A stretch of DNA of 64,000 nt. It comes from Solobacterium sp. (GTDB lineage: Bacteria > Bacillota_I > Bacilli_A > Erysipelotrichales > Erysipelotrichaceae). The stretch covers positions 1 to 64,000 of the forward strand of contig JAFRJJ010000077.1 of NCBI GenBank assembly GCA_017432325.1. Reading direction: 5' to 3'. The notes under the pieces are model-generated. The model did no database searches and was not told the DNA's origin. It saw nothing but the letters and a program-made list of their open reading frames with translations. Shown piece after piece: positions 25,621 through 57,264 of the stretch. Every line of letters begins with the position of its first letter. Positions within the stretch are counted from its first letter, which is position 1. The translations under genes and the position numbers were made by a program.

Positions 25621-25908
25621 TTACTGCTGCGTGTCTGCTGAAAGAGGTTCTTCTTTGAGCCGTGATTCTTCAACGACTTCATAGAGGTCTGCCGCATCCT
25701 TTTTCCGCTTCACATCTTCGGTGGAAAGGACCCTGATCTTCAGCATTCTGTTTCCGAATGTGATCGTCACGATATCTCCGGCTTTGACATCCGTAGACGG
25801 TTTTGCGACACGCCCGTTGACTTCGACACGGTCATTCAGCGCAAGTTCTTTGGAAACCGTGCGCCGTTTCAGGATTCTGGATACTTTCAGGTATTTATCG
25901 ATCCGCAT
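25621..25908 (-). CDS. rqcP: S4-domain RNA-binding protein RqcP (YabO)
   Basis: A 95-residue protein with an N-terminal S4 domain (MRIDKYLKVSRILKRRT...VNGRV...GDIV, residues 1-60). In Bacillota, RqcP works with RqcH to add alanine tails to nascent chains on stalled 50S subunits. Its start lies inside the end of mfd (14-base overlap), so translation is likely coupled. The order mfd-rqcP-divIC agrees with Bacillus. Confidence 0.88.
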   Translation of the reverse strand: MRIDKYLKVSRILKRRTVSKELALNDRVEVNGRVAKPSTDVKAGDIVTITFGNRMLKIRVLSTEDVKRKKDAADLYEVVEESRLKEEPLSADTQQ

Positions 25909-28900
25909 TGCGAAGCGCCTCCTTTGCTTTCGTGATCATCAGAGAGCACATCTCAAGACTGTCCTTTCCGATCGGAACAGTCGCAATGATGCTCTGATTT
26001 TTATAACTCAGTGAAATATCTTTTGAGAGATCAGAGAAGATCTCAAACAGCTTCACACCGTCGATCTTCTGGGAGAAGGGGACAGAGAATGTGATCTCCG
26101 CATTGCCGCGGATCTCTCTGTAAGCTGCTACATCCGGGCTGCTGACCAGGATATCCAGTTTCCTCTTTTCAAACAGCGACTTTACTTCTTCCGGAAGCCT
26201 GCCGTACTGATCGACCACCTGATCCTTCAGATCATCCAGATCATCAAGATGGTAGATACTGTCGATATTCTGATACATACCGAGCTTGTCATAATCATCC
26301 GGAGCGAATTTCTTCGGAATATAACTGCTGCGGGAAACGTTTGTATGTACGATCTGCTGTTCCGGCTCTCTGACGATCCCTTTTTTCCGTTCGATCGCGC
26401 TGTTCAGCATTTCAATATACATATCGATACCGACGGTATCAATGAATCCGGACTGTTCCGGTCCGAGCAGGTCTCCCGCTCCGCGGATCGTCAGGTCTCT
26501 CATGGCGATGCGGTATCCGCTTCCGAGCTTCGCGAATTCTTTGACTGCCTGCAGTCTCTTTCCGGCAACTTCACTGAGCTGTCTGCGGGGCGGGACAAGC
26601 AGGTAGGCATATGCGACACGGTCGCTTCTTCCGACACGGCCTTTGATCTGATAGATCTGTGCCAGTCCGAAGTTATGCGCGTTGTCGATCAGGATCGTAT
26701 TGGCGTTGGGAATATCAATGCCGTTTTCAATGATCGTTGTACACACAAGAACATTCAGTTCATGATGAATAAACTGCATCATGACATCTTCGATGGATTC
26801 TCTGTCCATTTTTCCGTGGATAATGCCGATCCTTGCGTCGGGTATGGACATCTGCAGCGATCTTGCGACACCGTAGATCTCCGCAATACTGTTATACAGA
26901 TAGAACACCTGACCGTTTCTTGCCAGTTCTTTTTCGATCGCGTCGATCACAAGTCCCTTGTTTTTCTCCACCACGTATGTCTGTACGTTATACCGGTTGC
27001 CCGGCGGAGTCTCAAGCTGTGAAAGCTGACGGATGCCGATCAGCGACATCTGCAGTGTTCTTGGGATCGGCGTTGCGCTCAGGGTCAGGACATCGATATT
27101 GTTTTTCAGTTCCTTGATCCGTTCCTTATGTTCAACACCAAACCGCTGTTCTTCATCAACGACCAGCAGTCCGAGATCTTTGAACACAACATCCTTGCTG
27201 AGGATCCTGTGTGTTCCGATCAGGATATCGATGGTTCCGTCCTGCAGTTCTTTCAATGTTTCCTTCACTTTTGAAGGGACAACAAATCTGTCCAGTACTC
27301 TGATCGTAAAGGGGAAGCCTTCAAAACGATGGGAGAATGTTCGGAAGTGCTGTTCCGCCAGAATGGTCGTCGGGCACAGAACAGCTACCTGCTTGTTTTC
27401 CGCAGCTGCCTTGAACGCTGCCCTGACTGCGATCTCGGTCTTTCCGAAACCGACATCTCCGCATACAAGTCTGTCCATCGGTTTATCGCTTTCCATATCA
27501 CGCTTGACATCCTCAACAGCCTTCTGCTGGTCGGGTGTCAGTTCATATTCAAATGCATCTTCAAATTCCTTCTGGATCGGACTGTCCGGCTGAAACGCAT
27601 ATCCGATATGTTCTTCGCGGACTGCGTACAGGTTGACGAGGCGTTCGGCAATATCATTGACATTTTCTTCCAGACGCTTCTTTGTCTTATCCCATTCCGT
27701 ACTTCCGAGTTTATTCAGTTTCGGGACAACACCTTCCCTGGAAACAAATTTACGTACCAGGCGGAACTGTTCCAGAGGAACGAGCAGTTCGGCATTCCCG
27801 CGGTAAACGATCCGCAGGAAATCACGCATGACACCTCTGACTTCCCTGGTTTCTATGCCTATATACTGACCAACTCCATGCTGGGCATGGACGACATAGT
27901 CTCCCGCTTCCAGCTCATCATACCCGTGGATGACTTCCGCGCTGCTGAATTTCTTCTCATATCTTCCGGTATGTCTGTGGATTTCAAATAACTCTGCAGA
28001 AGTCACAACGGTCAGTCCGGACACAGCATATGTAAATCCTTCCGGTAAAGGACATACCGCAATCTGAAAGCCTTCCATGACCGGTTCATCATCTATGATC
28101 AACCGGTAGGGGATCTTTTCATTGACGCAGGCTTCCACGACTCTGCCTGTTTCTTTTTCATCCAGGCAGAATAATACTTTGGGATAAGCTCTTAATATCT
28201 GCAGCTTGATCTCAAGAGAATCATTCGGAAGATGCAGTTCATTGATATTTGCTATATTGTCCGCAAACGGATTTTCCTTTACAGAAGGACATCCTTTAGC
28301 GGCACGGGAAAGTTCATGCCACACAGAATATTTCCCGGGTAATTTTTTCTCCTGGACCTGTTCCTGGATATAGGAAACACTGTCTTCGATCAGGCGCTTT
28401 GTCTTCTCATGGATCTCATCAGGATCAGACCAGATCACGACCGGATGATCCATATAGTCCCAGATACCGGAGGGACTGCTCAGAAACGCCGTATAGGGAT
28501 ACAGCCTGGTTTCACGGACTCCTGAACTGATCAGATTCAGATCCGATTCTACATTGCTTGACAGGATCGGATCATTCTTTTCTTCCAGCAGACTCCTGCA
28601 GGCGGTTACGATCTCCTCGGTATCCTTATCTGAAAACAGCACTTCATTCGCCGGTACGATATGCACCTCATCTGTACTGCGGATCGTTTTCTGTGTCAGA
28701 ACATCAAAGAAACGGATCGATTCGATCACATCATCGAAAAACTCCACACGGATCGGCTGTTCATAGTTGATCGAATAGATATCGACGATACCGCCTCTCG
28801 CCGCGAAGCTCAGCGGCTGATCGATATGTGACGTCCGATAGTAGCCTCCTGCCTGGAGACGGCGCAGCAGATCATCCATATCCATCGTTTCATCTGTTTT

Positions 28901-29317
28901 CAGATCGATACAGCTGTTTCTGAAATGTTCCGGTGAAGGAAGGTGACGCAGCAGACCGGAAGGACATGAGATCACGACCTGTGCCGGATTTTTCAGCAGG
29001 GATGCCAGTGTTTCCACCTTGTTGGCGGTCATCTCTGGAGAAGCAGCGATCGCTTCTACACGAAGGGATTCGTCCGCGCCGAAAAGAGCGCACTCATCTT
29101 CAGATAAAAGAGACGATACTCTTTCATAAAGACGCTGCGCACTGTACAGGTTATTTTTGACTACAAGAACCGGCCTTGGATCTTTTCTGTAAGAAGCACT
29201 GATGACCAATGCTTCTTCGATCAGGGAAGACATGGGAAGTTCACCCCTGTTTCCGTCCAGTATCCTGACAGCCTCATTCTGATCAAATTCAGATAATAAT
29301 CTGTTTAATAAGTTCAC
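25895..29317 (-). CDS. mfd: Transcription-repair coupling factor Mfd
   Basis: A 1140-residue translocase that removes RNA polymerase stalled at DNA lesions and recruits UvrA. Domains in order: UvrB-like module (about 1-340), RNA polymerase interaction domain (DYVVHAQHGVGQY near 480), RecG-like helicase with Walker A VCGDVGFGKTE, DEEQRFGV and LTLSATPIPRTLQMS, then the TRG motif and C-terminal D7. It is full length. It overlaps pth by four bases upstream and rqcP by 14 downstream. It carries a near-match to the Noc site at 28330-28343. Confidence 0.96.
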   Translation of the reverse strand: MNLLNRLLSEFDQNEAVRILDGNRGELPMSSLIEEALVISASYRKDPRPVLVVKNNLYSAQRLYERVSSLLSEDECALFGADESLRVEAIAASPEMTANKVETLASLLKNPAQVVISCPSGLLRHLPSPEHFRNSCIDLKTDETMDMDDLLRRLQAGGYYRTSHIDQPLSFAARGGIVDIYSINYEQPIRVEFFDDVIESIRFFDVLTQKTIRSTDEVHIVPANEVLFSDKDTEEIVTACRSLLEEKNDPILSSNVESDLNLISSGVRETRLYPYTAFLSSPSGIWDYMDHPVVIWSDPDEIHEKTKRLIEDSVSYIQEQVQEKKLPGKYSVWHELSRAAKGCPSVKENPFADNIANINELHLPNDSLEIKLQILRAYPKVLFCLDEKETGRVVEACVNEKIPYRLIIDDEPVMEGFQIAVCPLPEGFTYAVSGLTVVTSAELFEIHRHTGRYEKKFSSAEVIHGYDELEAGDYVVHAQHGVGQYIGIETREVRGVMRDFLRIVYRGNAELLVPLEQFRLVRKFVSREGVVPKLNKLGSTEWDKTKKRLEENVNDIAERLVNLYAVREEHIGYAFQPDSPIQKEFEDAFEYELTPDQQKAVEDVKRDMESDKPMDRLVCGDVGFGKTEIAVRAAFKAAAENKQVAVLCPTTILAEQHFRTFSHRFEGFPFTIRVLDRFVVPSKVKETLKELQDGTIDILIGTHRILSKDVVFKDLGLLVVDEEQRFGVEHKERIKELKNNIDVLTLSATPIPRTLQMSLIGIRQLSQLETPPGNRYNVQTYVVEKNKGLVIDAIEKELARNGQVFYLYNSIAEIYGVARSLQMSIPDARIGIIHGKMDRESIEDVMMQFIHHELNVLVCTTIIENGIDIPNANTILIDNAHNFGLAQIYQIKGRVGRSDRVAYAYLLVPPRRQLSEVAGKRLQAVKEFAKLGSGYRIAMRDLTIRGAGDLLGPEQSGFIDTVGIDMYIEMLNSAIERKKGIVREPEQQIVHTNVSRSSYIPKKFAPDDYDKLGMYQNIDSIYHLDDLDDLKDQVVDQYGRLPEEVKSLFEKRKLDILVSSPDVAAYREIRGNAEITFSVPFSQKIDGVKLFEIFSDLSKDISLSYKNQSIIATVPIGKDSLEMCSLMITKAKEALRNADR

Positions 29318-33536: not shown

Positions 33537-33614
33537 TTTTTGATATAGATTTCTGATGATTACATGTTTAGAATAGTATTTGCACCTTAAAAATCATCAG
33601 GAGTATTGCATATT

Positions 33615-34982
33615 ATGAGCACCCGAGATCAGTATCTGGAAGATGCCTGGAAGCAGGCTTTGAAATATTTAATAGACAACAAGCAATTGGATCAGGATAT
33701 TGTTAATACTTTTTATAATGACTGTTATATTCATGAACTGAATACGGAAAAAGCAATCATTATTGCGCCGAATATCATTGCAAAACAGATCCTTGTTCCC
33801 GATCTGATCCAGACAGCTTTGATCGCTGTTCTGGAACTGGATCATCCGATCAATGTTGAAGTCATGCAGGATAAAGATCTGAAGACAAGACAGCTGATCC
33901 AGGAAGCACCGGCGCAGGTGATCGATGATGATGATTTCAGCAGTATGACGATCCAGCCTGACCGTACATTTGAAAACTTTGTAGTCGGTGACTGCAACCG
34001 TGAAAGCCAGGCAGCAGCTCTTGCATGCGCTTATAATCCAGGCAAATACTTTAATCCTTTATTTATATATGGTAATTCCGGACTCGGAAAAACGCATCTC
34101 CTGATGGCGATCGGTAATTATGTCAAGAAGGCATATCCTGATAAGAAAGTTTATTATATCGAGTCATTGAAATTTGTAGAAAAGGTCGTTAAAGCGATCC
34201 AGAATAATAAGATCGAATATTTCAAGCAGTTTATGTGTTCCATTGATCTGCTCCTGATCGATGATATCCAGTTCCTTGCAGGAAAAGAGAAATCACATGA
34301 AGTATTCTTCTCTATTTACAACGAGCTAGTAAACAACAGAAAACAGGTATGCATCGCATCTGACAGACAGCCGAAAGAGATCAAAGGACTGGAAGAACGT
34401 CTGATCAGCCGTTTTTCCAGCGGCTTATCCGTCGGTATCGATTCTCCTGAATTTGAAACATCTCTTGCGATCCTTCGTCTGAAGATCAAAAACAGCGGCA
34501 GCGATATCAATGATGTGGATGAACAGGGCCTTGCTTATATTGCAAGCAATTTCTCAGGCAATGTCAGAGACCTGGAAGGAGCCTGGAACCGTGTTCTGTT
34601 CTATGCGATCATGTTCCAGAAAGATAAATCCATTATTCATTTTGAAACTGTGGTCAATGCGTTGAGAAACCAGGCTGTTGTCTCGGATGTGACAGGTATT
34701 TCCCCGAATAAGATTATCCGATGCGTTGCGGATTATTACGGACTGACAAAACAGCAGATCACAGGCAAAACCAGGACAAAGAATATTTCCAATGCCAGAC
34801 ATATCTCGATCTATCTCTGCAGAAAACTTCTGGATCTTCCCTATATAAAAATAGGAGAAGAATTCGGCGGCAGGGATCACGCGACGGTCATCAGTGCATG
34901 TAAGAAAGTTGAAAAGCAGATCTCGAAAGATACCGCGTTTGCGACTGCTGTAAAAGACATTGAACGTCTTCTTACGATCTGA
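33615..34982 (+). CDS. dnaA: Chromosomal replication initiator DnaA
   Basis: A roughly 455-residue DnaA. Domain I covers the N-terminal 85 residues. The AAA+ domain III has Walker A GNSGLGKTH, Walker B LLLIDDIQFL and the arginine finger region LISRFSSG. DNA-binding domain IV carries the box-recognition signature GGRDHATVISACKKV. The start ATG at 33615 is preferred: AGGAG at 33599-33603 is too close to the TTG at 33606 that would add three residues. DnaA-box clusters lie on both sides. Confidence 0.97.
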   Translation: MSTRDQYLEDAWKQALKYLIDNKQLDQDIVNTFYNDCYIHELNTEKAIIIAPNIIAKQILVPDLIQTALIAVLELDHPINVEVMQDKDLKTRQLIQEAPAQVIDDDDFSSMTIQPDRTFENFVVGDCNRESQAAALACAYNPGKYFNPLFIYGNSGLGKTHLLMAIGNYVKKAYPDKKVYYIESLKFVEKVVKAIQNNKIEYFKQFMCSIDLLLIDDIQFLAGKEKSHEVFFSIYNELVNNRKQVCIASDRQPKEIKGLEERLISRFSSGLSVGIDSPEFETSLAILRLKIKNSGSDINDVDEQGLAYIASNFSGNVRDLEGAWNRVLFYAIMFQKDKSIIHFETVVNALRNQAVVSDVTGISPNKIIRCVADYYGLTKQQITGKTRTKNISNARHISIYLCRKLLDLPYIKIGEEFGGRDHATVISACKKVEKQISKDTAFATAVKDIERLLTI

Positions 34983-43739: not shown

Positions 43740-43951
43740 AAGAGAACAAGTAAACCTGCTGTCTGATGCAGAAAACCGGTGGTTGATGCGAACCGGTCTG
43801 ATTCAGGTTGAAATCCATCTCAGAGTGGGAGTAATGACCCCCGGATGCGGCCGTTATACGCATAATGAAGTGGTAATTGTTTCACGTGAAACAATTACAA
43901 ATAGGGTGGCACCGCGATCAACATCGTCCCTAATCAGGATGATGTTTTTTT
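43740..43951 (+). promoter_or_regulatory. T-box leader of serS (UCC specifier) with parS-derived hairpin
   Basis: Conserved T-box AGGGTGGCACCGCG at 43903-43916, followed by a terminator stem AACATCGTCC / GGATGATGTT and T run (43920-43951). Stem I spans about 43740-43830 and ends with the usual AGAGTGGGAG; a TCC serine codon at 43814-43816 (in GAAATCCATC) is the likely specifier. Uncharged tRNA-Ser would favour the antiterminator and serS expression. The stem just before the T-box sequence, the position of stem III, is a 26-base perfect palindrome (43873-43898) that contains a parS site. Confidence 0.92.
43878..43893. promoter_or_regulatory. parS: parS site 1 (ParB-binding centromere), inside the serS T-box
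   Basis: TGTTTCACGTGAAACA, an exact match to the Bacillus parS consensus TGTTNCACGTGAAACA. spo0J/parB and soj/parA are encoded at 55.6-57.3 kb. It lies about 10 kb from oriC. Confidence 0.92.
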
Positions 43952-45306: not shown

Positions 45307-45322
45307 TGTTTCACGTGAAACA
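45307..45322. promoter_or_regulatory. parS: parS site 2
   Basis: TGTTTCACGTGAAACA again, with flanking bases extending the palindrome to 20 (45305-45324). It lies between the serS terminator and the -35 of the SRP RNA promoter, 1.43 kb from site 1. Confidence 0.92.
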
Positions 45323-54038: not shown

Positions 54039-54779
54039 ATGCAGATTGAAGAACTGGAAAAACACGCAGTGGACCTGGGTATTTCATGGGATGATACTAT
54101 GAAGAGCCGCCTGATCAGATATGCGGAGCTTTTAAAAGAGTGGAATCAGAAAATGAATCTGACTGCGGTCGATGAACCTGAAATGGTATATGAAAAACAT
54201 TTCCTTGATTGTATGCTTCCACTGCAGGTTCATTTCCCGGGAAATAAAATATGTGATGTTGGTTCCGGTGCCGGATTTCCGGGAATGGTATTTGCAATAG
54301 CCGATCCGGATCTGCAGGCAACGCTCGTAGAACCTACAGGAAAACGATGCCGTTTTCTGGAAGAAGTGATCAAAGAACTTGATCTGAAGAATGTAACGGT
54401 ACTGAATGAACGCGCTGAAGAACATGTCATGAAGTTCAGGGCGTATTATGATGTAGTATGTGCCAGGGCAGTTGCGGGTCTGCCGGTATTGGCAGAGCTC
54501 TGTATTCCTCTGGTCCGCAAAGACGGTATTTTCCTTGCAATGAAGGGCGATAAAGGCCTTGAAGAAGCAATCGAAGGTACATTTGCCGTCAAAACACTCG
54601 GATGCAGGGAAAGCGGAACGATCATGCAGAATCTGCCTGATGGTTCGGAAAGGGTGCTGCTGGTATACAGAAAAGAAAAGGATACGCCTGAACAGTATCC
54701 CAGACCTTATGCAAAGATTCGAAAAAACCACTTGGGAGCAGGAAGTAAAAATGAGAAACACAGGAAAGGGTTTATTTGA
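54039..54779 (+). CDS. rsmG: 16S rRNA (guanine-527 N7)-methyltransferase RsmG
   Basis: A 246-residue SAM-dependent methyltransferase for 16S rRNA. SAM loop VGSGAGFPG, then VEPTGKRCRFLEEV and VVCARAVAGL match RsmG/GidB. CGGAG precedes the start. It contains a perfect Noc-binding palindrome at 54232-54245 and its end overlaps the noc gene by 29 bases. Confidence 0.95.
   Translation: MQIEELEKHAVDLGISWDDTMKSRLIRYAELLKEWNQKMNLTAVDEPEMVYEKHFLDCMLPLQVHFPGNKICDVGSGAGFPGMVFAIADPDLQATLVEPTGKRCRFLEEVIKELDLKNVTVLNERAEEHVMKFRAYYDVVCARAVAGLPVLAELCIPLVRKDGIFLAMKGDKGLEEAIEGTFAVKTLGCRESGTIMQNLPDGSERVLLVYRKEKDTPEQYPRPYAKIRKNHLGAGSKNEKHRKGFI
54232..54245. promoter_or_regulatory. Noc-binding sequence (NBS) inside rsmG
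   Basis: ATTTCCCGGGAAAT, identical to the Bacillus subtilis Noc-site consensus. It lies about 500 bases upstream of the noc start. One near copy (13 of 14) is in mfd at 28330-28343. Confidence 0.8.
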
Positions 54780-55557
54780 TTTTCTGGACCGTGATAAGAC
54801 CGGACAGGTGATTAAAATAGACATCAATGAAATACAGCCATCCAGATATCAGCCGAGACTGAATTTTGATGAAAAAGCGCTGGATGAACTGACTGCTTCG
54901 ATCCGCGTCAACGGACTGATCCAGCCGATCGCTGTCCGTCAGGCGGAAAACGGATATGAGATCATTGCCGGAGAACGGCGTTATCGCGCATGCAAAAAAG
55001 CGGGCCTGAAAGAGGTTCCCTGCTACCTGCTTTCACCAAATGAAGGTCAGGCTGCGGAGATGGCTCTGATCGAGAACATCCAGCGTGAAGATCTGACTGC
55101 AGTGGAAGAGGCTAAGTCTTATGTAGAGATCATGCGTCAGACCGGCATGACACAGGAACAGGTTGCCGAGCGCGTCGGCAAATCACAGTCATCCGTAGCG
55201 AATAAGATCAGGCTTCTGAACCTTCCGGAACATATCCAGGATGCGGTTGCTGAGAAAAGGATCAGTGAGCGCCATGCAAGGGCATTGCTCGGCCTTCCGG
55301 AAGAAAAACAGGAAAAAGCATACGAACATATTATTGATAAGGGCCTGAACGTACGGCAGACAGAAAGCTATATTGAAAGTCTTACTGCGAAAAAACCGCC
55401 GCGCAGAAAAACAAAGGGATTTACCAGAAACGCCCGTATTGCGCTGAATTCCGTGAATCAGTGTATTCAGATGATCCGCAAGATGGGAATCGATGTCAGC
55501 ACTGATGTCGAAGAAACAGATCAGGATACACGGATTATTATCAAGATACCGAAATGA
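54751..55557 (+). CDS. noc: Nucleoid occlusion protein Noc (ParB family)
   Basis: A 268-residue ParB-family CTPase placed as in Bacillus between rsmG and soj. Noc spreads from its sites and blocks division over the nucleoid. CTP-binding GERRYR (74-79) and ENIQRED (108-114), then the helix-turn-helix GKSQSSVANKIRLLNLP. The N-terminus MRNTGKGLFDFLDR could form the short amphipathic membrane helix of Noc. Known Noc specificity residues Gln and Lys are present (Gln146, Lys152), but the third position is Asn157. The start follows GGGAGCAGG; the open frame extends upstream through rsmG. Confidence 0.85.
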   Translation: MRNTGKGLFDFLDRDKTGQVIKIDINEIQPSRYQPRLNFDEKALDELTASIRVNGLIQPIAVRQAENGYEIIAGERRYRACKKAGLKEVPCYLLSPNEGQAAEMALIENIQREDLTAVEEAKSYVEIMRQTGMTQEQVAERVGKSQSSVANKIRLLNLPEHIQDAVAEKRISERHARALLGLPEEKQEKAYEHIIDKGLNVRQTESYIESLTAKKPPRRKTKGFTRNARIALNSVNQCIQMIRKMGIDVSTDVEETDQDTRIIIKIPK

Positions 55558-55579: not shown

Positions 55580-56371
55580 ATGGGAAAGATCATAGCAGTC
55601 GCCAACCAGAAAGGCGGCGTAGGAAAAACAACGACCAGTATTAACCTCTCTGCAGGTCTGGCATATGCAAACAGGAAAATACTGCTTGTGGACTTCGATC
55701 CGCAGGGCAACGCAACACACGGGATCGGAGCCAACAGAGTCGGCTTTGACCGCAATCACACCGTATATGATGTTCTTGTAGGGCCGGACAGTGTCAGGCA
55801 GAATGCAGTCAGGCTGGATATGCCGCCGCTGGATGTGCTTCCTGCAACGATAGACCTGTCAGGCGCAGATGTTGAGATGGCATCTTCCAACTATGCGGTA
55901 GGCAGGGAAAACCTTCTGAAGCAGAAGCTGGACGCAGTGAGGAACGATTACGATTACATCATTATCGATTGTCCGCCTTCCCTGGGTCTTCTGAATACCA
56001 ATGCACTGACTGCTGCAGACACCGTTATGATTCCTGTCCAGTGTGAGTATTTCGCGCTGGAAGGTCTGACACAGCTGCTCGGAACGATCCGTCTGGTGCA
56101 GAAATTATGGAATCCCAGACTTTCCATTGAGGGAGTTCTGCTGACGATGTTCGACGTCAGAACGAAACTGTCTGTTGAAGTCCAGCAGGAAGTTCGGAAA
56201 TATTTCAAGGAAAAAGTCTACAGATGCTATATTCCGAGAAATGTCAGATTATCGGAAGCACCTAGCCGTGAAGTATCGATCTTCGAATATGATACAAAAT
56301 CGGAAGGCGCAAAAGCATACGCAGCACTGGTCAGAGAAGTGATTTCTCATAATGAGAAAGGAGGACGTTAA
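55580..56371 (+). CDS. soj: Chromosome partitioning ATPase ParA/Soj
   Basis: A 263-residue ParA ATPase. Deviant Walker A KGGVGKTTT (11-19, with the signature Lys), DFDPQGNAT and IIDCPPSLG (Walker B) are present. It works with ParB at parS in segregation and regulates DnaA in Bacillus. The stop overlaps the spo0J start by one base (TAATG). Confidence 0.95.
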   Translation: MGKIIAVANQKGGVGKTTTSINLSAGLAYANRKILLVDFDPQGNATHGIGANRVGFDRNHTVYDVLVGPDSVRQNAVRLDMPPLDVLPATIDLSGADVEMASSNYAVGRENLLKQKLDAVRNDYDYIIIDCPPSLGLLNTNALTAADTVMIPVQCEYFALEGLTQLLGTIRLVQKLWNPRLSIEGVLLTMFDVRTKLSVEVQQEVRKYFKEKVYRCYIPRNVRLSEAPSREVSIFEYDTKSEGAKAYAALVREVISHNEKGGR

Positions 56372-57264
56372 TGGCTAAACGTGACACAGGCGGACTGGGC
56401 GGAAAAGGACTGGACAACATCTTCAATGTCGATGTTGAAAAGTTTCTGGATGACATTCAGAACAACGCGCAGGATGCTCCGGGAAGAAAGGAAGTAGAGA
56501 TTCCGATAAACGAGATCCGTCCGAACCCGTATCAGCCCAGAAAAGAATTTGAACCGCAGGCACTGAATGAACTGGCAGATTCGATCCGTCAGCACGGTAT
56601 CTTTACACCGCTGCTTGTCAGAAAATCAAAGATTTCAGGATTTGATCTGATCACCGGTGAACGCCGTTTAAGAGCCGCGAAGATCGCTGGCCTGGAGACA
56701 GTTCCGGCAATCTCAGTCGATTTCACTGACGATGAGATGATGGAGATCTCAGTCCTTGAAAACATTCAGAGAGAAGACCTGAACCCGATCGAAGAAGCAG
56801 CAGCGTATGAGAGTCTTGTAAAGAACCTGGGTTATACACAGGAAAAGCTTGCACAGCGTGTCGGCAAGAGCCGTGAATACTGTGCGAATATGCTGAGACT
56901 GCTGAAGCTTCCCCAGACAGTGCAGAAAATGGTAACGGACAAAAAACTGACCATGGGACATGTCAGACCGCTTCTTGCATTGAAAGATGATGACCAGATG
57001 TATGAAGCAGCTCGCACTGTTCTGGAAAAGAAAATGTCCGTTCGTGAAGTAGAAAAATATGTCAAGGAACTGGCCGAAAAACCGGTCACAAAAAAGCCTG
57101 TAAAAGAAAAAGATCCGATGATCACGGATCTTGAAAACAGACTGTCCGGAAAACTCGGCACAAAAGTCGGTGTCTCCGGCAAGTCGCTGACGATCCATTT
57201 TACAGATACGGATGATTTGAACAGGATTCTGGAAATTCTCGGCTGTATTGAAGATGAAAACTGA
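56371..57264 (+). CDS. spo0J: Chromosome partitioning protein ParB/Spo0J
   Basis: A 297-residue ParB CTPase clamp that loads on parS and recruits condensin. N-terminal basic tail, NPYQPRKEF, GERRLRA (96-102) and ENIQRED, then the helix-turn-helix GKSREYCANMLRLLKLP and a C-terminal dimer domain. The Arg of GKSR (168) is the parS-type specificity residue. Two perfect parS sites lie at 43.9 and 45.3 kb. Confidence 0.94.
   Translation: MAKRDTGGLGGKGLDNIFNVDVEKFLDDIQNNAQDAPGRKEVEIPINEIRPNPYQPRKEFEPQALNELADSIRQHGIFTPLLVRKSKISGFDLITGERRLRAAKIAGLETVPAISVDFTDDEMMEISVLENIQREDLNPIEEAAAYESLVKNLGYTQEKLAQRVGKSREYCANMLRLLKLPQTVQKMVTDKKLTMGHVRPLLALKDDDQMYEAARTVLEKKMSVREVEKYVKELAEKPVTKKPVKEKDPMITDLENRLSGKLGTKVGVSGKSLTIHFTDTDDLNRILEILGCIEDEN

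Follow-up and report, generated by a model that had tools for sequence, protein, structure and literature searches.

Noc and its DNA sites

Nucleoid occlusion by Noc has been worked out in two Bacilli. The palindrome to which Noc binds, the NBS, has a published 16-bp consensus, TATTTCCCGGGAAATA, and four specificity positions have been defined for Noc and ParB, with a single lysine at position 179 or 184 sufficing for NBS binding (PMC7383237, in excerpt). Noc slides as a CTP clamp (PMC8429893, in excerpt). In B. subtilis, an N-terminal amphipathic helix of Noc is required for membrane binding and for occlusion, and such a helix is predicted in all of the Noc homologues that the authors of that work examined (PMC4331003, in excerpt). 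The NBS of B. subtilis and S. aureus share one pattern, in that they are origin-enriched and terminus-poor (excerpts of PMC5540599 and PMC4331003).

The system encoded in the window (that is, the whole 64,000-nucleotide stretch of Solobacterium sp. DNA that was analyzed) is of this known kind. It shares with B. subtilis and S. aureus the NBS palindrome, residues Q173, K179 and R201, the ParB_N and HTH_ParB domains of the protein, and the enrichment of sites toward the origin and their scarcity toward the terminus. It differs in the number and spread of its sites: the source genome has about six strong ones, all in the two contigs that flank oriC, in contrast to ~70 in B. subtilis and 41 in S. 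aureus, spread over the origin half of the chromosome or more. Residue 184 is N in the window's Noc in place of the K of Bacillus Noc, and an NBS lies less than 1 kb upstream of noc, which is a feature of the window (the comparison with B. subtilis covers residues, domains, and the number and spread of sites). A search of the open-licence literature found no report of a noc-adjacent NBS or of a helix-less Noc, and these two look like new variants of the already known Noc-NBS system.

The ParB-parS system is comparable in its paralogous protein of the clamp family and in its oriC-clustered sites, two perfect examples of which occur in the window; it is unlike the system considered here in that specificity residues and site sequence are here Noc-type, and ParB is encoded by a separate gene. 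A further likeness is to the KorB-type ParB repressors and to parS-proximal repression in Pseudomonas, in which a site-specific protein of the ParB fold acts at promoters (PMC7022226, in excerpt). Noc is not KorB, however, and regulation by Noc is here putative.

The noc region of the window

The preliminary description had placed a perfect Noc site inside rsmG, just upstream of noc, and a 13/14 copy in mfd. Both are found (Table 1), and the gene that follows rsmG is Noc by the TIGR04285 model. The perfect copy matches 15 of the 16 positions of the published consensus palindrome and lies 506 nt ahead of the noc start, in a run of genes ordered mnmG, a 210-residue ORF without family match, rsmG, noc, parA and parB. 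Since dnaA and two perfect parS sites are present, the window spans oriC; the dnaA region aligns to the first bases of G125, a complete genome from the same genus. Counted at up to three mismatches, the window by itself holds eight NBS copies where 3.7 are expected, which is weak evidence, five of 100 shuffles being equally high.

Table 1. Coordinates of NBS copies, genes and origin markers in the window
Feature	Position	Strand	Basis and remarks
NBS, perfect 14-mer palindrome ATTTCCCGGGAAAT	54232-54245	.	14/14 match; codons 65-69 (HFPGN) of rsmG
Second NBS, ATTTCCCGGGTAAT	28330-28343	.	13/14 match; inside mfd
mfd	25895-29317	-	ORF identified as Mfd; contains the 13/14 NBS copy
dnaA, oriC marker	33606-34982	+	TIGR00362, 431.8 bits; ~20 kb from the perfect NBS
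Perfect parS TGTTTCACGTGAAACA	43878-43893	.	motif match
Second perfect parS	45307-45322	.	motif match
rsmG (gidB), holding the perfect NBS	54039-54779	+	TIGR00138, 163 bits (cut-off 99.5)
noc, 268 aa	54751-55557	+	TIGR04285, 317.5 bits (cut-off 315); 29-nt overlap with the 3' end of rsmG
Noc N-terminal extension MRNTGKGLFDFLDRD, amphipathic-helix-like (putative membrane-targeting sequence)	54751-54795	+	hydrophobic moment
parA (soj)-like ATPase	55580-56371	+	ParA-family models, all scoring below their cut-offs
parB (spo0J)	56371-57264	+	RMKG at specificity positions

An origin-proximal set of sites

The source genome (a draft of 3.335 Mb in 90 contigs) contains three perfect and six one-mismatch copies of the NBS, nine in all, and none of the reversed pattern. 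That control is too lenient, since GGGCCC is rarer than CCCGGG in this genome, and it was therefore replaced by palindromes of the same composition and by Markov models (of order 1, 3 and 4, for which the 177 kb of the two oriC contigs served as the sole training sequence). The Markov expectation for the whole genome is 0.02-0.06 perfect copies and 0.8-2.2 copies with at most one mismatch. The 14-mer is thus commoner than chance genome-wide; the preliminary description had named the contrary outcome as one that would speak against its reading.

The two contigs flanking oriC are C52, to which the window belongs, and C84, which protein matches to G125 place beside it, ~25-50 kb to the left of oriC. 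Together they amount to 177 kb, or 5.3% of the genome, and hold six of the nine copies at no more than one mismatch, against a Markov expectation of 0.04-0.11; when the reported site is set aside, five of the remaining eight are still found there (binomial 2e-5). The other three, on contigs C6, C45 and C76 (unplaced on the chromosome), are near chance level. About six strong NBS close to the origin make up the excess, and the NBS set of this draft genome is origin-enriched and terminus-poor, with C6, C45 and C76 unplaced. Seven of the nine copies lie inside long reading frames; those at C84:64023 and on C45 are intergenic. When all 12- and 14-base palindromes of the oriC stretches are ranked de novo, many unrelated words come up and the NBS does not stand out.

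Copies of the source genome with exactly two mismatches were discarded as NBS: their number is at chance level (25 observed, about 14-33 expected), and none of the 25 is in the oriC contigs. The one-mismatch copy on C45 is probably not an NBS; it belongs to a terminator-like TTCCCGGGAA array. This array (locus L004, G000:C45:47828-47873) has TTCCCGGGAA three times in tandem, lies between convergent frames and reads as an intrinsic terminator, with a stem, a GAAA loop and a T run.

Recognition residues of Noc

The window's Noc scores above the TIGR04285 cut-off, but only just; its paralogue, the window's ParB, stays below at 241.4 bits. The nearest solved structures are those of Noc (7ng0 and 7nfu), with KorB structures among the weaker matches. 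The ParB_N domain of the window's Noc (108 bits) has both GERRYRA and ENIQRED, which we take to be the CTP-binding motifs of this domain; CTP binding by the protein is a prediction.

At the specificity positions (Caulobacter numbering) the window's Noc has Q173, K179, N184 and R201, and the window's ParB has R-M-K-G. This mapping relies on what we take to be the recognition-helix motif, and it was checked by the clean separation of Noc and ParB rows. The family alignment comprises 101 Noc rows from 102 loci (one, in G017, gave none), which stand for 101 genes in 100 genomes, G064 contributing two. Every row has K179 and R201, and Q173 is universal by construction, the rows having been chosen for it. 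Position 184 is N in 50 rows, Q in 21, K in 13 and other residues in the remainder. The suggestion that Noc specificity is kept in this lineage finds support in the Q-K-N-R of the window's Noc, in the constancy of K179 and R201, and in the enrichment of the motif in the source genome and, across the family, in genomes that have Noc but not in those that lack it (see below), all of which point to a retained DNA code.

Family ParB proteins, that of the window included, mostly have K or R at position 184 (RxKG), and family Noc proteins are mostly without it (QKNR), so that the permissive lysine at 184 sits in the opposite paralogue by comparison with Bacillus Noc. The two Noc-type genes of G064 (L242 and L243) have QKKR and QKGR, respectively, at the specificity positions.

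Sites beside noc across the family

In 101 noc loci of the family (each of up to ~20 kb; 1.62 Mb from 42 genera) there are 17 NBS at no more than one mismatch, seven of them within the kilobase upstream of noc and two downstream. By this count the NBS ranks first, by a wide margin, of 140 palindromes of the same composition, the controls having no more than three copies in these loci and at most one each in the kilobase upstream of noc; its lead is repeated for the bin from -1000 to -500 at up to three mismatches. That bin is a single peak in the distribution relative to noc, with five of 39 genera at up to one mismatch and eight at up to two. Other 500-bp bins have no more than two and three genera, respectively, and the bins flanking the peak have none at up to one mismatch. 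(Genera are not fully independent, and p-values are to be read as guides only). The proposal that Noc may bind beside the gene encoding it gains from this one sharp peak, at the level of sequence statistics.

The position of the NBS varies among genera. The rsmG gene is found upstream of noc in 100 of the 101 loci, and the NBS is mostly upstream of rsmG, lying within it in the window and, with two mismatches, in G102. That the NBS recurs while its position is not conserved suggests that selection has repeatedly favored an NBS beside noc. Twenty noc loci from other families have no NBS at up to one mismatch within about 10 kb.

It is possible, if somewhat doubtful, that the noc-side NBS is a dedicated operator, serving mainly for feedback control of rsmG-noc-parA-parB and not for nucleoid occlusion. 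What recommends this reading, apart from the peak itself, is the placement of certain sites relative to promoters upstream of rsmG: in genus g50 the NBS fills the promoter spacer and ends 4 nt before TATAAT, and the corresponding distance to TATAAT is 12-13 nt in g19 and 14 nt in g16. Pseudomonas ParB at the intergenic parS3 and parS4 sites, moreover, represses neighboring promoters (PMC7022226, in excerpt). Promoter overlap is nevertheless modest (four of nine sites within 45 nt, against a background of 13%; p 0.015-0.02), 31 of the 39 genera are without an NBS at up to two mismatches in the -1000 to -500 bin, and the NBS of the window lies within rsmG with no recognizable promoter overlapping it, so that simple promoter occlusion is not favored there.

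A reading of the peak as a mere reflection of general NBS density around oriC starts from the origin bias of NBS, seen here and in PMC5540599 (in excerpt), but it is improbable, given that the peak is restricted to a single 500-bp bin with empty neighbors at up to one mismatch, and that just two of the 17 copies are downstream of noc. That the 14-mer is a chance by-product of coding (CAT TTC CCG GGA AAT, for HFPGN) in a genome rich in TTCCCGGGAA is very unlikely: the core alone is not rare, TTCCCGGGAA occurring 22 times genome-wide and CCCGGG being common, and the RsmG of the relative L071 retains F-P-G though its palindrome is broken, but three perfect copies are observed where 0.02-0.06 are expected per genome, the excess is around oriC, there are other genera whose NBS ahead of noc is not in the coding frame of rsmG, and FPG just before DVGSGAGFP is confined to the window's RsmG among the 101 family loci, so that the peptide is not a family constraint and is unsupported as the motif's cause.

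Distribution of sites in relatives

Only two records, whose Noc is 97% identical to that of the window (L069, from dairy cattle duodenum, and L070), conserve the window site exactly; the 71%-identical relative L071 has lost it, with three mismatches. No perfect NBS copy occurs in any of five other genomes of the window's genus that were examined, and G125 and G044 have zero copies at up to one mismatch, so that the genus does not adhere strictly to the published consensus. All 20 two-mismatch sites of G125 nonetheless fall in its origin half (KS 1e-7), the farthest no more than 48% of the half-chromosome away from oriC. Most of them deviate in the central steps of the palindrome, consistent with the rarity of CCGG in that genome. 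(Avoidance of CCCGGG in G125 was rejected: one copy is observed and the Markov expectation is 1.1; CCGG is simply rare). In G031, another complete genome of the genus, 11 of 12 copies at up to two mismatches are in the origin half. The 26 NBS at up to one mismatch in five complete genomes of the family tend to lie towards noc (KS 0.005); three of them are exceptions, close to the terminus.

Perfect NBS are found in 36 of 145 family genomes, and the reversed control in none. The 103 genomes scored as having Noc contain 65 perfect NBS against 353 W4CCCGGGW4 words, and the 29 scored as lacking it contain one against 49. Lack of Noc was here read from the hit table (a long-frame ParB-type best match, or a weak match in an unlisted row) and not from residues, eight ambiguous genomes were excluded, and G041, G094 and G017 were scored as having Noc by hit length. 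The contrast has a Fisher p-value of 0.003 without the window genome, and of 0.017 when two copy-rich g5 genomes are also left out. Among G140-G144, which are outside these tallies, perfect sites occur only in G140 (three). Genus g50 (G050 and G132) repeatedly shows ATTACCCGGGTAAT as well as palindromes that mix ATTT with ATTA; in that genus, as with the window's mfd copy, the half-site may be less constrained at position 4.

Proposed working of the site

The 14-mer is likely to be a true site of Noc nucleation, of which the genome keeps about six around oriC, in an overall explanation that extends to clamp loading, tethering and feedback. The analysis itself established the sequence, how it is enriched and clustered at the origin, the recognition residues, and that NBS recur upstream of noc; binding, clamp and tethering we infer from the Bacillus literature. 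By that analogy, dimeric Noc would bind the palindrome and close into a CTP clamp, which would slide onto the adjoining rsmG-noc-parA-parB DNA; the N-terminal amphipathic peptide would then tether the origin region to the membrane, and division would not be initiated over the origin. The NBS 0.5-1 kb before noc may have been retained for negative feedback, with the Noc complex lowering transcription of the operon that encodes Noc, a step that is less sure than those of clamp and tether. In the window species, with its NBS inside rsmG, the complex could act solely as a roadblock or through spreading. Noc autoregulation by way of the noc-side NBS is a plausible hypothesis, and the recurrence of that site makes it directly testable. 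The same DNA code is, by these statistics, kept in Erysipelotrichaceae; the preliminary description was correct about the site and largely correct about its meaning.

The N-terminal helix

The N-terminus of the window's Noc, MRNTGKGLFDFLDRD, is amphipathic-helix-like as judged by its sequence only (hydrophobic moment of 0.74 for the 9-mer KGLFDFLDR). In 96 of the 101 family Nocs (the start codons of which are predictions) the helix is absent: these proteins start 56-60 residues before GERR, directly at ParB_N (for example, L174 of G050 and L186 of G006), and thus have no room for it. Most of these short Nocs have a good ribosome-binding site just 5' of the start. The five helix-bearing Nocs, with 69-73 residues before GERR, are exactly those of the window's genus, and their N-termini are MRNTGKGLFDFLDRD, MKNNFFDRFMEN, MATIFDLFEKK (twice) and MPSILSIFDRK. 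The N-terminus of L071, which is closer by identity to the window than these are, is MKNKGIGIFDFFDRD (translated by eye). Among 20 Nocs of other families, ten have an N-terminus of helix length; the nine that come from the sister family within the order lack it, as does one other. A helix essential to occlusion in B. subtilis is thus missing in nearly the whole family, implying that the family Nocs use another anchor or do another job.

A tree of the Noc core recovers the window's genus as a clade, with support (SH-aLRT 95), amid helix-less rows. The history of the helix requires two changes, or 11 losses if it is never regained, and an arrangement that unites all helix-bearing Nocs in a single clade is not rejected (p-AU 0.375). 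One conceivable, though on balance unlikely, course of events is that Noc lost the helix in Erysipelotrichaceae and the sampled sister family, where it turned into a soluble NBS-binding clamp, marking the origin region and regulating the operon that encodes it. The window's genus would then have regained the helix, or would alone have kept it, together with true nucleoid occlusion. In that case the family would be a natural series separating the DNA-marking from the membrane-tethering function of Noc.

Noc-like domains also occur in longer frames (369-611 residues) in f11 genomes (G374, G386, G336, G406, G379, G333, G338, G305, G203 and G215); these proteins are possibly Noc with an added domain.
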